A stretch of DNA of 64,000 bases from Pedobacter arcticus A12 (GTDB lineage Bacteria; Bacteroidota; Bacteroidia; Sphingobacteriales; Sphingobacteriaceae), in the NCBI RefSeq assembly GCF_000302595.1, contig NZ_JH947127.1:1-64000 (forward strand). Reading direction: 5' to 3'. Shown in pieces: positions 5,198-29,219 of the stretch (position 1 is the stretch's first letter; each line of letters begins with the position of its first letter). Under the pieces are notes generated by a model. The model was not told where the DNA came from, did not search any database, and was given only the letters and a program-made list of their open reading frames with translations. A program made the position numbers and the translations under genes.

Positions 5198-5219
5198 CTA
5201 ACAATACATTCTATTAAAA

Positions 5220-5837
5220 ATGATTAGCAATCTTTGTAACCAAATATTTGAACAGTGTATAAATGACTATCATGTAAAAAATGAGATTGATTTTGAGCTG
5301 GTAAATCCTTACCAAACTGCTACAATCGAATTTCTTTTATATAAAAAAAATTGGATAGACACCGCCCAATGGCACATGGAAGACGTTGTAAGAAATCCAA
5401 AAATTGATTGTAGTGAAGGCTTGAAATGGAAACGAAGGATTGACGCTTCTAACCAAGAAAGAACAGACTTGGTTGAATATATAGACAGTTATTTTCTTGA
5501 ACGCTTTAAAGGTGCCGAACCAAAGGCAACGGCAAAAGTAAACACTGAAAGCCCCGCTTGGGCGATTGACAGATTATCTATTTTGGCGTTGAAAATATTT
5601 CATATGCGTGAGGAAGCAGAAAGAACTGGCGCAAGTGAACAGCACAGAGCAAGTTGCGGTGAAAAACTTTCCGTTTTATTACAACAACGAACAGACTTAT
5701 CGCAATCCATTGACGAGTTGCTTAGCGACATTGAAAATGGAGACAAGTATATGAAGGTTTACAAACAATTAAAAATGTACAACGACCCCAATTTAAATCC
5801 GATCTTGTATAACCTAAATAAAGAAAAAAATGGATAA
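5220..5837 (+). CDS. DUF4254 domain-containing protein
   Basis: A 205-residue cytosolic helical protein matching the DUF4254 family of Bacteroidota. The function is not established. The family signature is in the C-terminal half, with AIDRLSILALKIFHM followed by a long helix of alternating charged residues, predicted coiled-coil-like. It begins 22 bp after the PolX-like gene and overlaps the GT9 glycosyltransferase gene by 8 bp, so the last two genes are translationally coupled. That pairing is common in the phylum and suggests a role in lipopolysaccharide or other heptose/sugar transfer, but this is context only. Confidence 0.85.
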   Translation: MISNLCNQIFEQCINDYHVKNEIDFELVNPYQTATIEFLLYKKNWIDTAQWHMEDVVRNPKIDCSEGLKWKRRIDASNQERTDLVEYIDSYFLERFKGAEPKATAKVNTESPAWAIDRLSILALKIFHMREEAERTGASEQHRASCGEKLSVLLQQRTDLSQSIDELLSDIENGDKYMKVYKQLKMYNDPNLNPILYNLNKEKNG

Positions 5838-6867
5838 AAGGCGTAAAGTCCTTATTATTCGATTTTCGGCGATGGGAGATGTTGCTATGACAGCTCCCAT
5901 CGTTAAACAAATAGCAGAACAAAATATTGACATTGAGTTTGTCTACTTAAGTAGGCCGCTTTTTGAACCTTTTTTCGCTAACATACCCAACCTAACTTTC
6001 TATCCTTTTAATCCGAAACTTTATAAAGGTTTAGGTGGATTATTTCGCCTTTATTGGCAATTAAAGAAACTACACGTTACTGAAGTTGCCGACCTACATT
6101 TTAATTTAAGATCGCGGATTATTAGTTTCTTTTTTAAAGCAAACGGTCTTAAAGTAGCGCATTTAGATAAAGGTAGAGCAGAAAAAAAGGACTTAACAGC
6201 CAAACATAATAAAGTTCTGAAACAGCTTAAACCTATGTGGCTTCGCTATCTCGAGGTTTTTGAACATTTGGGAATGAAAACAAGCCTTGTAAACGGGCTT
6301 AGCAAAGCCAAGAGCGAATCTATTTCTGAAATTGTAGAAGCTTTAACCGGAAAAAAAGGTGTTGAAAATTGGGTAGGCGTGTCACCTTTTGCACAACACT
6401 TACAGAAAGTTTATCCCATTGATAAAATGGAAGAAGTTGTCAGGTTTTTGGATGGCCAAAACATCCGCACTTTTATTTTTGGTGGCGGGACTGACGAAAA
6501 AACTATCGGAGAGAGGTGGCAAACAAGCTACCCTAACTGTGTTTCAGTGATTGGGGAAATAAAACTGAAAGAAGAATTGAATTTAATAGCTCAACTTGAC
6601 GTGATGATTAGCATGGACTCTGCAGGCATGCACCTTGCGTCGTTAAAAAACACAGAAGTAGTTTCGGTTTGGGGTGCAACACACCCATTTGCTGGTTTTT
6701 TAGGATTTGGACAGCGTGAAAGCAATTGCGTACAAGCCGATATATCATGTAGACCTTGTTCTGTATACGGAAACAAGCCTTGTTTTAGAGGCGACATCGC
6801 TTGTATGCAACTAATCGATCCAAAACACATAATTGATAAAACACTGCAAATACTTAAAAAACGCTGA
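5830..6867 (+). CDS. Glycosyltransferase family 9 (heptosyltransferase-like)
   Basis: A 345-residue GT9 enzyme, likely acting on the inner face of the cytoplasmic membrane in lipopolysaccharide core assembly with a nucleotide-activated heptose or similar sugar. The N-terminal strand KVLIIRFSAMGDVAMT is the typical GT9 start. The donor-binding half shows FGGGTDEKT, then MDSAGMHLASL and VVSVWGATHP, the conserved (D/M)SAxxHLA element. A C-terminal cysteine group (CRPCSVYGNKPC) is usual in the Bacteroidota branch. Its start lies inside the end of the DUF4254 gene. Acceptor and donor cannot be told from sequence. Confidence 0.88.
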   Translation: MDKRRKVLIIRFSAMGDVAMTAPIVKQIAEQNIDIEFVYLSRPLFEPFFANIPNLTFYPFNPKLYKGLGGLFRLYWQLKKLHVTEVADLHFNLRSRIISFFFKANGLKVAHLDKGRAEKKDLTAKHNKVLKQLKPMWLRYLEVFEHLGMKTSLVNGLSKAKSESISEIVEALTGKKGVENWVGVSPFAQHLQKVYPIDKMEEVVRFLDGQNIRTFIFGGGTDEKTIGERWQTSYPNCVSVIGEIKLKEELNLIAQLDVMISMDSAGMHLASLKNTEVVSVWGATHPFAGFLGFGQRESNCVQADISCRPCSVYGNKPCFRGDIACMQLIDPKHIIDKTLQILKKR

Positions 6868-24367: not shown

Positions 24368-25600
24368 TCAATTTTTAATGTATAAGATACCTTTATAAGT
24401 ATCTTCAATATTAATACCAGGATATCTGATCCCATGATCTGAAGTTACAATAATTTTAGCATTGGGCTTTGCTTCTAAAATCATTTTTACCGCTTTAATA
24501 CCTACAATATCCGCTTTTGCTAATTCTAGCGTTGTTTGAGTTTCAGTATTAATATCATAATAAGAATTATGGAAAGTTAGAAAATGAAAAAATGAGATTT
24601 TTTTCTGACCGTCTGCTAAATCAGATTTGAGTTGGTTGAAACGATAATCTATTTGTTCATTTACTTCCCTATTATTCCAATCCTCTAAGAAAGGACAGTA
24701 ATTTAACACACGGTTGATTATTGGGTACCAATAAATGCTGAAATCACTTCCTCTTCCAAAGTATAATTTTGTAAGGTTATTATCCTCTTCTAAAAGCAAA
24801 GAGTTCATCTCTATTTCATATTTATACTTTTTTGAAAACTGTTGTATAAAGTCTCCTGGAATAAGACTTTTCATTGCTGCAATATCTTTAATAAAATAAT
24901 CCGAATTTCCCTTAAATATAATACCTGAAAACAGATTAGGAATTGATTGTTGGGTAGCTGTGTATTTGGTAATGTGCTTTTCTTCAGTAAAACCTTCGGC
25001 AAGCAAAACCGTATGTAACCTAGATTGGATACCAAAGTACTTCTCAAGAACCTCATTTGATGGAAAAGCGTCTAACAGAATGATATAGACATCTTTACTA
25101 CTGTCGCTCGGAGAAATGATTTTAGAAATTGGCGGCGTTTTACTCGTGTTAAATTGAAATCTTGTACTGTAATAAAAGGGGATCAGTGTTAAACAAAAAA
25201 CAATATTCATAACCAGTATTAACTTTGTTATTTTCAATACGGTTTTACCCCTAATCAAACATATCGTTAATACCAATAAAGATAAAATCCCTAATTTTAT
25301 AAACCTGTTGCTACCACTGTAAAAAAGGGAATTAATTAATGGATTTGTAAGTATTAAAATGGAAACCAGCTTTATCCTTAATAAAAACGCATTATTAAAT
25401 AAGGCAAAACTCGCTAAAACTACAAATACACCATAGGTAACATATTGATTAATATCACTGTAGGAAACCCAGATACTTAAATATAAACCTATAAACAGCA
25501 TATACAGAAGTGACCATAGGTCTATCTTCTTCTTATCCTCTTTTGAAACAGATAAATAATTCTCTAGTTGAGATAACTTGTTTAGCATCCAAGATTTCAT
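24368..25600 (-). CDS. Membrane-anchored alkaline-phosphatase-superfamily (sulfatase-like) protein
   Basis: A 410-residue protein with about five N-terminal transmembrane helices (26-45, 51-73, 77-95, 100-117, 122-142) and a periplasmic alkaline-phosphatase-fold domain. That domain opens KDVYIILLDAFPSNEVL, where the aspartate binds metal, and carries VTSDHG near the end, the second metal site. The likely nucleophile is a Ser/Thr in TKYTATQQSIPNL. The protein stops about 20 residues after SDHG; relatives as I recall continue for some 80 more, so it may be truncated. The first 68 bp overlap the upstream gene. Likely role: phosphoryl or sulfate transfer on a surface glycan, inferred. Confidence 0.75.
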   Translation of the reverse strand: MKSWMLNKLSQLENYLSVSKEDKKKIDLWSLLYMLFIGLYLSIWVSYSDINQYVTYGVFVVLASFALFNNAFLLRIKLVSILILTNPLINSLFYSGSNRFIKLGILSLLVLTICLIRGKTVLKITKLILVMNIVFCLTLIPFYYSTRFQFNTSKTPPISKIISPSDSSKDVYIILLDAFPSNEVLEKYFGIQSRLHTVLLAEGFTEEKHITKYTATQQSIPNLFSGIIFKGNSDYFIKDIAAMKSLIPGDFIQQFSKKYKYEIEMNSLLLEEDNNLTKLYFGRGSDFSIYWYPIINRVLNYCPFLEDWNNREVNEQIDYRFNQLKSDLADGQKKISFFHFLTFHNSYYDINTETQTTLELAKADIVGIKAVKMILEAKPNAKIIVTSDHGIRYPGINIEDTYKGILYIKN

Positions 25601-26894
25601 AATGTTTGTTTATGCTCTTTACAAAGTAATCTCTAGATAAAGAGTAGGGATAATTAGGGTTTTTAATCAATTGGTGGCGCGGGTCTTCATCATTGATAAA
25701 CTCAATCAACAAATAAGATTTCGGCTTGGCGCACCCAGCGAAGAAATCAATAATGGTTTCAAAAGATAAATTTTCTTGATGTATTAAATGATGTATCAAG
25801 CCTAAACAAAGCTGAAAGTCGTTAACCTTGTTCAATCTGCTTTTCAGCGACTCTCTTTCGCCATCAAAACCTAAATTAGGTGTGAGGTTTAGAATATCTG
25901 CATATATTGGTATAATCCGTTTTGCTTTATATCTTACGTAAAGTTGGTTAACAGCATTATAGTCACTCTCTACACTTAAAACTATCGCTTTTTTGAATAC
26001 GTTTAAAAGTAAAACAGAAAATTTACCATCATTTGCACCCCAATCAGTTGCATAAATTACATCAAATTCTGAATTAACCTTTTTTAAAAAGTCTTCAACT
26101 ATCTCCTCTTTTTTAGCAACATAACCATCTCTCAAAACAGTTTGCGAGTAATAATCATCCCATTTTGTCTTTTGTTTTGGGGGGTTAAATGTATTTATTT
26201 CTGCTTTTAATAATGCTATATTATTTATTACCTGTTGCTTAGATACTTTAATAGAAATCTCTCTGGTTTTATTTTCTAACTTTCTTATTCTAGATTTTTT
26301 ATAAAAAACATAATGAATGTTGAATCCAGGTTTCAAATAGTTATTCCATCTAAATTTATAATGATGGATCCACTGTTGATCAAATTGCAGTTTCACCAAG
26401 TCCGCACCATAAATACCTCCATTTTCTTTTAGATATATTAGTGGAAAATAAAATTCTGATAAAAACTGGCGATAGGCTTTCCAGCCTGTTGTAGAGTCAT
26501 ATTTTTCGATAGAGCCTATATCAAAGTGCAACAACCTATTTTCACCTGTATATGCTATATTAAAAGGTGTGGCATCTTTTAAAGCAAAATCTTTAGCTAA
26601 TAATCTTTCTAAGCATCGAAGATAAAAGAGTGCGTAGTCTTTGTAGAGCTGAAATGGGAGTTCATAAGGAAGAACAATAAACGGTATTTTTTCAATTTCG
26701 AAATACCCTGTGTGTTCAAAATTTTCGGGCTGATATTTTAATACCTCTGGGAAGCTTTTCGATTTTTGGTTAAGATTTTCCAAAATCTCCTCTTGATCTG
26801 GATTAACGAATCTTATGATTTTCCCATTAACCTCAAAAACGCTAAATTCGGGATCTCTTCTTGATGATTTAATACGAGATTCTTCAAGATTCAT
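25533..26894 (-). CDS. Kinase-like / SAM methyltransferase fusion (NoeA-like)
   Basis: A 453-residue protein resembling nodulation protein NoeA-like methyltransferases. The N-terminal half has a small-molecule-kinase-like catalytic loop, LKDATPFNIAY (105-115), and a FDIGS (124-128) in the place of the metal-binding DFG. The C-terminal half is a class I methyltransferase with motif I DWGANDGKFS (284-293), VLSVESD and CLGLIHHL. The start at 26894 is preferred: its ATG overlaps the end of the small YLDPG gene, and the longer frame to 26963 reads through that gene. The next gene begins inside its 3' end. Substrate unknown; surface-glycan modification is plausible. Confidence 0.75.
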   Translation of the reverse strand: MNLEESRIKSSRRDPEFSVFEVNGKIIRFVNPDQEEILENLNQKSKSFPEVLKYQPENFEHTGYFEIEKIPFIVLPYELPFQLYKDYALFYLRCLERLLAKDFALKDATPFNIAYTGENRLLHFDIGSIEKYDSTTGWKAYRQFLSEFYFPLIYLKENGGIYGADLVKLQFDQQWIHHYKFRWNNYLKPGFNIHYVFYKKSRIRKLENKTREISIKVSKQQVINNIALLKAEINTFNPPKQKTKWDDYYSQTVLRDGYVAKKEEIVEDFLKKVNSEFDVIYATDWGANDGKFSVLLLNVFKKAIVLSVESDYNAVNQLYVRYKAKRIIPIYADILNLTPNLGFDGERESLKSRLNKVNDFQLCLGLIHHLIHQENLSFETIIDFFAGCAKPKSYLLIEFINDEDPRHQLIKNPNYPYSLSRDYFVKSINKHYEILDAKQVISTRELFICFKRG

Positions 26895-27063
26895 CCTCTG
26901 TATTTTTTTTCTTCTTAAAAAAACCAAATAAATAGTTTTTAGCAATATAATAAGACCCAGCAATCGCCGCTAATACTTGAGCTATAACAGCTCCGTTTCC
27001 GGGATCGAGGTACAAAAGATGTGGCATAATCATAAACAAGCAAATAGCTAAAGTTAATTTCAC
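26884..27063 (-). CDS. Small YLDPG-type membrane protein
   Basis: A 59-residue gene that is easily missed. From a GTG at 27063 it reads MKLTLAICLF (GTG read as Met), a signal-like helix, then YLDPGNGAVIAQVLAAIAG (about 18-36), a further hydrophobic stretch and a lysine-rich end FFKKKKNTEDES. The YLDPG(N/T)G motif followed by one helix marks a widespread family of tiny membrane proteins near polysaccharide genes. In-frame ATGs at 27033 and 27027 are alternative starts. The stop overlaps the start of the kinase-like/methyltransferase gene (ATGAATCTTGA), so the two are translationally coupled. Function unknown. Confidence 0.72.
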   Translation of the reverse strand: MKLTLAICLFMIMPHLLYLDPGNGAVIAQVLAAIAGSYYIAKNYLFGFFKKKKNTEDES

Positions 27064-28829: not shown

Positions 28830-29219
28830 TCACTTTAAAATCAACGCTATTACCTTCGGTACTAAAATCAACAAACCAACGGTCACAGCAGTCACGGCGC
28901 TCAACAAAACAGCTAAGGCTGCTAAATCCTTAACTTTCTTGATTTTCGAATTTTGTTCTGGGCAAATGAAATTACAAATCTCCTCCACGCAGGTGTTAAA
29001 AACCTCGGCAACAAACACAAATCCAATGGCGAAAACAATCAACGCCCATTCCAGAGCCGAAATACCCAATAAAAAACCTACAATTATTACAAAAACAGTG
29101 AACAGCAAGTGAACTCGAGCGTTGTGCTCATATTCCAATAAAGTTCTAAATCCGTTGATAGCGTATTTAAAACTAGCGACCCGACTTTTTAATGAAAACT
29201 TTTGATTTGATTTCTCCAT
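28830..29219 (-). CDS. dgkA: Diacylglycerol/undecaprenol kinase family protein
   Basis: A 129-residue integral membrane lipid kinase of the DgkA family, which in Gram-negative bacteria of this phylum may act on undecaprenol or diacylglycerol. The N-terminal amphipathic helix FKYAINGFRTLLEYEHNAR is followed by three transmembrane helices, with catalytic acidic residues in AEVFNTCVEEI (usually ExxNTAxE) and the KVKDLAA element. The usual glycine after KDLAA is a leucine here. It is a single gene, divergent from cydA. Length is normal. Confidence 0.88.
   Translation of the reverse strand: MEKSNQKFSLKSRVASFKYAINGFRTLLEYEHNARVHLLFTVFVIIVGFLLGISALEWALIVFAIGFVFVAEVFNTCVEEICNFICPEQNSKIKKVKDLAALAVLLSAVTAVTVGLLILVPKVIALILK

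Follow-up and report, generated by a model that had tools for sequence, protein, structure and literature searches.

We examined a unit of three overlapping genes on the minus strand of a 64,000-nucleotide (nt) stretch of the Pedobacter arcticus A12 genome (contig NZ_JH947127.1, positions 1 to 64,000; genome of 4.2 Mb in 16 contigs), hereafter called the window. In order, the genes encode a microprotein (P0003), a NoeA-like fusion of a kinase-like half and a methyltransferase half (P0001), and a NoeB-like membrane protein with a domain of the alkaline phosphatase (AP) superfamily (P0002). Judged by sequence, the unit is a new, strongly diverged NoeA-NoeB-type operon, a known kind of operon that is widespread in bacteria and little studied. 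The genes and their features are as follows.

26884..27063, minus strand: microprotein gene P0003 (59 amino acids (aa), GTG start; leave-one-out profile E 2.7e-14)
26992..27012, minus strand: YLDPGNG motif codons of P0003; the motif is probably outside the membrane
26884..26894, minus strand: 11-nt overlap of the P0003 end and the start of the NoeA-like gene, from sequence and translation
25533..26894, minus strand: NoeA-family kinase-like/methyltransferase fusion P0001 (453 aa; leave-one-out profile E 4.2e-79)
26559..26576, minus strand: kinase-like catalytic loop D107...N112 (D and N in 95/95 family members; strand-loop-strand order in the model)
26511..26522, minus strand: DFG-like D125-I-G-S128 (D and S in 95/95 members)
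25788..25793, minus strand: H368-H369 of the methyltransferase half, aligned with WbdD H132-H133 (profile alignments, conservation)
25533..25600, minus strand: 68-nt overlap of the NoeA-like and NoeB-like genes, from sequence
24368..25600, minus strand: NoeB-like membrane protein P0002 (410 aa; hydrophobic N-terminal helices, then AP-superfamily domain; leave-one-out profile E 1.8e-13)
24953..24955, minus strand: T216, candidate nucleophile (T in 49/50 members)
24431..24439, minus strand: D388-H389-G390 metal-site motif (D 50/50, H 46/50, G 49/50)

Three predicted proteins and their conserved residues

Profiles from which the window's own sequences were excluded (leave-one-out profiles) were run against the 917 stop-to-stop frames of at least 30 aa in the window. 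They single out exactly P0003, P0001 and P0002, with the next-best frames at E values of at least 0.12. A YxDPGxGS microprotein thus lies directly upstream of the NoeA-like gene, and an AP-fold gene directly downstream. No Pfam or NCBIfam model scored above its cut-off for any of the three proteins, and matches below cut-off were disregarded (Polysacc_synt and NodU for the microprotein, DUF5398 for P0002, FkbM for P0001). A preliminary description of this DNA had proposed tight coupling of the genes; the 68-nt overlap of the second and third genes is confirmed, and the ATG of the middle gene lies within the last 11 nt of the microprotein gene. For P0001 we chose this ATG, at 26894, over the TTG at 26963 given in a program-made list of open reading frames (ORFs) because it agrees with the N-termini of relatives. 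P0003 has possible alternative starts at in-frame ATGs at 27033 and 27027. Promoter-like sites showed no excess over shuffled sequences, and no terminator-like site was found.

P0003 consists of a short hydrophobic leader, the YLDPGNG motif, one hydrophobic stretch and a tail with a KKKK run. Among 88 collected microproteins, 78 match the motif pattern, in which Pro is fixed and Y, F or W may come first; the other 10 carry variants such as YLDAGTGS and YLDPSTGS. In all 78, the first motif residue is Y, the residue eleven positions further is Q, and a hydrophobic stretch follows the motif. The leader is short in 25 of the 78. In 44 it is long and hydrophobic, and 36 of these carry an A-x-A-like site immediately ahead of the motif. 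Basic residues outnumber acidic residues in the tail of 51/78. Both leader forms would place the motif at the outer end of a single membrane helix.

P0001 aligns with Sinorhizobium meliloti NoeA over residues 6-452 (BLASTP, 23% identity, E 1e-24), and S. meliloti NoeA scores 410 bits on our NoeA-family profile A5; on these comparisons P0001 is a NoeA-family member. Its AlphaFold model has a predicted local distance difference test score (pLDDT) of 87.6 and a predicted template-modelling score (pTM) of 0.90. Residues R28, D107, N112, D125 and S128 are present in P0001 and invariant in 95/95 family members, and the kinase half of the model runs in the order helix, strand, D..N loop, two strands, D. 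On our own reading, R28, D107, N112 and D125 would be the equivalents of R38 and of D166, N171 and D184 of protein kinase A, as named in PMC9758233. In a comparison with viral structures, the Mimivirus LCMiAC01 'methyltransferase domain protein' A0A481Z196 matched the P0001 model over most of its length (TM 0.62/0.68), which suggests that a NoeA-type fusion may exist in a giant virus.

The best Protein Data Bank (PDB) match of the methyltransferase half by sequence is WbdD (E 8.6e-5; E 2.8e-4 for the half alone). WbdD residues H132-H133 (4uw0 numbering) align with the HH of the family in two profiles, while the HH block alone scores a weak 5.2-5.5 bits. H368, E398 and R444 are invariant in 95/95 NoeA-family members, and H369 is H in 94/95. 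According to PMC3482155, WbdD variants H132A, H133A, R203A and Y16F still phosphorylated the acceptor, and no methylation was seen in vitro.

The model of P0002 is less confident (pLDDT 73.2, pTM 0.71) and has helices over residues 2-153. In VIA-align comparisons the nearest structure is the YejM/PbgA domain (Z 15.6, root-mean-square deviation (rmsd) 2.9, 199 aligned), followed by LtaS (Z 13.9, rmsd 3.9, 213 aligned) and EptC (Z 13.2, rmsd 3.5, 204 aligned); Foldseek matches also include EptA and MCR-type transferases. YejM/PbgA, EptA and LtaS share with P0002 the combination of membrane helices and AP domain, although identity is low (about 10-17%) and P0002 is without the C-terminal part. 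The Asp/Thr/Asp-His residues of the metal site are kept in P0002, namely D177 (49/50), T216 (49/50), D388 (50/50) and H389 (46/50), as are H339 and H344. The metal-site role of D177, T216, D388 and H389 we take from EptA and LtaS, AP-fold transferases that draw their phospho-group from a phospholipid. Sulfatases use Cys or Ser as nucleophile, unlike the Thr of the NoeB-like family. The Pfam Sulfatase model matches NoeB and 10/14 family members, and P0002 itself is unmatched.

These predictions bear out three assignments of the preliminary description: a membrane microprotein (hydrophobic stretch after the motif), a kinase-like/methyltransferase fusion (AlphaFold model, conserved residues and PDB sequence match) and an AP-fold membrane protein (the YejM match and N-terminal helices).

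Co-occurrence of the three families

The preliminary description would have been contradicted by homologues of the three genes not occurring together elsewhere; because many genomes carry all three families together, that objection fails. We searched a class-level and a phylum-level sample of 395 genomes each, which overlap in some genomes. The NoeA-type family is present in 26/395 genomes of the class-level sample. We examined 29 rows, comprising 28 places from this sample (window included) and one genus relative. A YxDPG microprotein lies no more than 300 nt upstream of the NoeA-type gene in 20 rows, and a DHG-bearing gene of more than 250 aa lies within 2 kb downstream in 14. In the phylum sample the microprotein was found in 13 genomes and the NoeA-type gene in 15. 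All 13 microprotein genomes also have a NoeA-type gene on the same strand, at a distance of at most 173 nt in 12 of them; in the remaining one (G404) the distance is 1.7 kb, with an AP gene between. AP matches (profile A6) were present in 9 of 13 genomes tested (12 microprotein genomes and one genome, G596, with a NoeA-type gene only). Seven of the nine have the AP match adjoining the unit; G702 has a partial match beside the unit, and G134 has its match elsewhere.

A profile scan of named loci gave at least 587 matches in many phyla. The best 80 were analysed, so that the following rates are biased towards relatives of the query, L040. By motif or profile, a microprotein lies directly upstream in 68/80 of these best loci, and an AP gene lies no more than 500 nt downstream in 45/80. 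The strict YxDPG-type motif occurs in 59 of the 6821 small frames of the same loci, and 56 of the 59 are the adjacent microproteins. One of the 80 loci is archaeal by title. A scan with P0001 as its sole query gave 26 pattern matches and no relative among them, and the NoeA-type protein of L040 had no match in the phage collection. We rejected a chance neighbourhood on the leave-one-out profile matches and the co-occurrence of microprotein and NoeA-type gene in the phylum sample.

In a quick tree of 96 sequences with long branches, five NoeA-type members without microprotein (L008, L053, L055 twice and L057) form a sister branch (Shimodaira-Hasegawa-like approximate likelihood-ratio support 100). 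In L008, L053 and L057 the NoeA-type gene directly follows ABC2_membrane and ABC_tran genes, an exporter of the Wzm-Wzt kind, and the exporter ATPase carries a Wzt_C domain in L008 and L053. In E. coli O9a, wbdD likewise follows wzm-wzt. In the window no such exporter adjoins the unit.

It should also be noted that other genes accompany the NoeA-type gene in individual loci. In L102, L111, L116, L125 and other Chloroflexota loci, a protein of about 330 aa replaces the AP gene directly 3' of the NoeA-type gene; it has an N-terminal membrane stretch and a common 'YLRxDLQEDYLRM' segment, and the L102 copy has no Pfam match. A CAAX-protease (Rce1-like) gene directly follows in L137 (5318-6151, plus strand). 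In L006 (11318-13644, minus strand), a gene for an MBOAT acyltransferase and one for a 332-aa partner, which has no Pfam match, adjoin the unit in convergent orientation, a pair that resembles AlgI/AlgJ-type glycan O-acetylation. One of the two NoeA-type copies in L055 is preceded by a sulfotransferase gene (5199-6107, plus strand). Finally, a metagenome bin titled Rickettsia typhi (L079) contains the complete unit and is placed with Gastranaerophilales by the tree; its title is probably a mislabel.

Relation to NoeA-NoeB, WbdD and other known systems

The preliminary description had stated that none of the three genes has a known function. This needs correction, as noeA and noeB have been known since 1995 (as cited in PMC9758233) as Sinorhizobium host-range genes, which influence the choice of legumes open to infection by this nitrogen-fixing symbiont, and the conserved neighbourhood was published in 2022 (PMC9758233). 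On S. meliloti pSymA all three families recur on one strand in the order seen here (an unnamed YLDPGTGS protein, noeA and noeB), and all match the family profiles; the microprotein, P0004, was found at E 1.9e-12 in a three-sequence search. As annotated, the microprotein and noeA genes overlap by 23 nt there, and the gap between noeA and noeB is 6 nt. As differences from the window unit, the S. meliloti operon is preceded by nodL and lies on a symbiosis plasmid, and its NoeB has 553 aa compared to 410 aa for P0002. In CP140953.1 the microprotein gene, located between nodL and noeA, carries no annotation beyond hypothetical; the accessible literature describes the operon as nodL-noeA-noeB. In a strain that fails to nodulate 17/27 Medicago truncatula genotypes, noeA is reported in the same literature to be truncated.

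A Legionella kinome survey (PMC9758233) reads a NoeA homologue, Lani_1194, as a kinase-methyltransferase and, in its accessible text, assigns no function. Homologues occur in 1201 other species, Archaea included, and the two neighbours in Lani_1193-1194-1195 recur at rates of 65% and 38% among 816 neighbourhoods. The likeness of Lani_1193-1195 to the window unit is the combination of a NoeA-homologous kinase-methyltransferase with an AP-fold neighbour; the main text of the survey gives neither the identity of Lani_1193 nor a YxDPG motif. Among the papers listed, in searches that left out most subscription papers and for Lani_1194/NoeA began with 2018, no biochemically tested function of noeA, noeB or Lani_1194 was seen. 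Nor did these papers contain a role for the microprotein or a capping route split between inside and outside, and searches with the motif strings found nothing related.

WbdD of E. coli O9a unites a kinase and an S-adenosylmethionine (SAM)-dependent methyltransferase in one protein, and its HH aligns with that of the NoeA family. It caps the O9a antigen with methyl phosphate (PMC3482155). WbdD differs in its domain order of methyltransferase, kinase and coiled coil, compared to P0001, in which the kinase half comes first and the methyltransferase half is the last part of the 453 aa. In the accessible descriptions WbdD has no microprotein or AP partner, and its sequence similarity to the NoeA family is weak. 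A further methyltransferase-kinase pair is the Klebsiella O7 terminator ORF6, a coiled-coil protein that gives a methylphosphate end group and whose kinase domain is, according to its authors, quite different from that of WbdD (PMC11231755). Capping with methylphosphate already has at least two known solutions in kinase-methyltransferase pairs whose kinase domains differ strongly, which makes a third one reasonable.

A proposed function and its alternatives

Tentatively, and with confidence somewhat short of even, we read the unit as a NoeA-NoeB-type operon that methyl-phosphorylates a surface carbohydrate. We infer a mechanism in which the kinase half of the cytoplasmic NoeA-like protein would phosphorylate, with ATP, a hydroxyl on a membrane-linked carbohydrate or lipid-linked precursor. 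The SAM half would then methylate that phosphate, as WbdD does on the O9a antigen with its domains in the opposite order. The methyl-phosphate step is the part on which we would bet first. The single-pass microprotein, oriented with the YxDPGxGS end towards the outside and the tail in the cytoplasm, may keep the NoeA-like enzyme at the membrane beside the NoeB-like protein. Outside, the AP domain of the latter would transfer or trim a phospho-group on the final surface carbohydrate via a threonine-phosphate intermediate. A wider version, which we consider unlikely, is that the three families form a membrane machine of this kind in multiple phyla, with a kinase/phosphate-methyltransferase inside, an AP-type transferase outside and a nearly constant single-pass microprotein that joins the two or carries the group across by way of its exposed YxDPGxGS end and the conserved Gln with which its membrane helix begins.

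A number of observations weigh against a methyl-phosphorylating operon, and several concern its surroundings and conservation. The window neighbours scanned are topA and genes for a histidine kinase, diacylglycerol kinase, cydA, aldolase and carboxyl transferase, with no glycan genes among them. The surface-glycan modification proposed in the preliminary description is plausible from the WbdD likeness and the exporter synteny of the sister branch; the window neighbours do not speak for it. Neither of the two L055 members of the sister branch is directly preceded by exporter genes; they lie near a Polysacc_synt and a sulfotransferase gene. Among 124 neighbour ORFs scanned, glycosyltransferases were commonest at 7, with DprA and HD at 5 each, figures that come without a background rate. 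Nine of the 29 rows have no microprotein within 300 nt. Five of these belong to the sister branch, one (L045) has it 1.7 kb upstream with an AP gene between, and one (L061), at a contig end, is a fragment of 57 aa; L048 and L059 have none of these excuses. One AP gene counted in the 29 rows (L046) is separated from the unit by another gene. In the phylum sample, G596 has a NoeA-type gene without microprotein match, G501 matches in the methyltransferase half only, and 4/13 genomes have no AP match at 1e-10. An adjacent microprotein was not found in 12 of the best 80 loci. Three of these are cut by contig edges, three have the microprotein elsewhere in the locus and six have none found (one of them, L081, has only 253 nt of upstream sequence). 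With profile A4, 35/80 loci have no AP gene within 500 nt downstream, six of them at contig edges; L117, L134 and L135, among the 35, carry a longer Sulfatase-fold protein of 711-856 aa in place of the usual AP protein of about 500 aa.

The proteins themselves admit other readings. The kinase-like half might be a pseudokinase or a small-molecule binder, with the methyltransferase acting on a sugar hydroxyl, amine or carboxyl and the AP protein independently adding a phospho-group from a phospholipid. The top structural match of P0001 residues 241-453, the methyltransferase half covered by VIA-align, is NodS (Z 18.4, rmsd 2.9, 182 aligned), a sugar-amine methyltransferase that acts on chitooligosaccharides. 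A search with just the kinase half retrieved no PDB sequence with E up to 10 and only stray Pfam matches, the WbdD kinase loop scores only -1.9 bits against the NoeA family, and the WbdD match is weak and confined to the methyltransferase core. Structures that the AP half resembles include EptA/LtaS-type transferases; with Z 13-14, ENPP phosphodiesterases and sulfatases are on a par with LtaS and EptC, so transferase and hydrolase are not separated for P0002. Against a pseudokinase, R28, D107, N112, D125 and S128 are kept in 95/95 members, more in our judgement than a pseudokinase usually keeps, and the best sequence match is WbdD, not NodS (3ofj, E 0.44 only). We regard this explanation as rather unlikely. 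Less probable still is that the products leave the cell, or that their targets are secreted signalling molecules instead of the cell's own envelope. Published proposals for the Legionella homologue (PMC9758233) and for Nod factors point that way, as do the nodL adjacency in S. meliloti and the truncated noeA described above. However, the family spans archaea, candidate phyla radiation bacteria and, by record titles, many lineages that we do not know as host-associated, and its two partners, AP protein and microprotein, are both predicted to reside in the membrane.

The window operon could also be a decaying or repurposed remnant, horizontally acquired, whose third enzyme has lost its C-terminal part. 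P0002 has 23 residues from DHG to its end, the shortest of 50; its 49 relatives have a median of 87 and a range of 50-127. Its C-terminus is thus about 60 residues shorter than that of the median relative, a VNxF-like motif present in this stretch of 40/50 members is absent from it, and inspection of the three downstream minus-strand frames showed no continuation. Among the 96 in the tree, P0001 sits on the longest branch (5.45), and it is without the W kept by 94/95 family members. The unit has a G+C content of 31.2%, which puts it at the 4.5th percentile of stretches of its size, compared to 35.7% for the window, and a single-sequence search found a NoeA-type match in only 2/18 genomes of the genus, the second (G010) of the exporter-linked type. 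An empty-site test did not show acquisition at this site, as the flanking genes are not neighbours in those relatives in which both were found. On the other side, the three overlapping frames are intact, the catalytic-type residues of both enzymes are kept, and the lost stretch of P0002 lies beyond the metal-site motif. We think a remnant rather unlikely. The unit is nonetheless the most diverged copy examined by sequence, and given its strong divergence and shortened third protein, this copy may therefore be altered or decaying.

A prokaryotic diacylglycerol kinase gene lies two genes from the unit (window 28830-29219, minus strand), with the histidine kinase gene between. AP-type transferases that use phospholipids release diacylglycerol, and this neighbour may be more than coincidence.

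In the accessible literature, the role of noeA and noeB, host-range genes known since 1995, is still given only as a hypothesis. If the operon methyl-phosphorylates a carbohydrate as we propose, then WbdD-like phosphate methylation, the exporter-linked branch and the nearly constant microprotein partner lead to a concrete prediction, that a methyl phosphate would be found on a surface carbohydrate or Nod factor. The prediction concerns a gene set found in Bacteria and Archaea, one member of which is so short that annotation can leave it without a name, as happened in the S. meliloti record.

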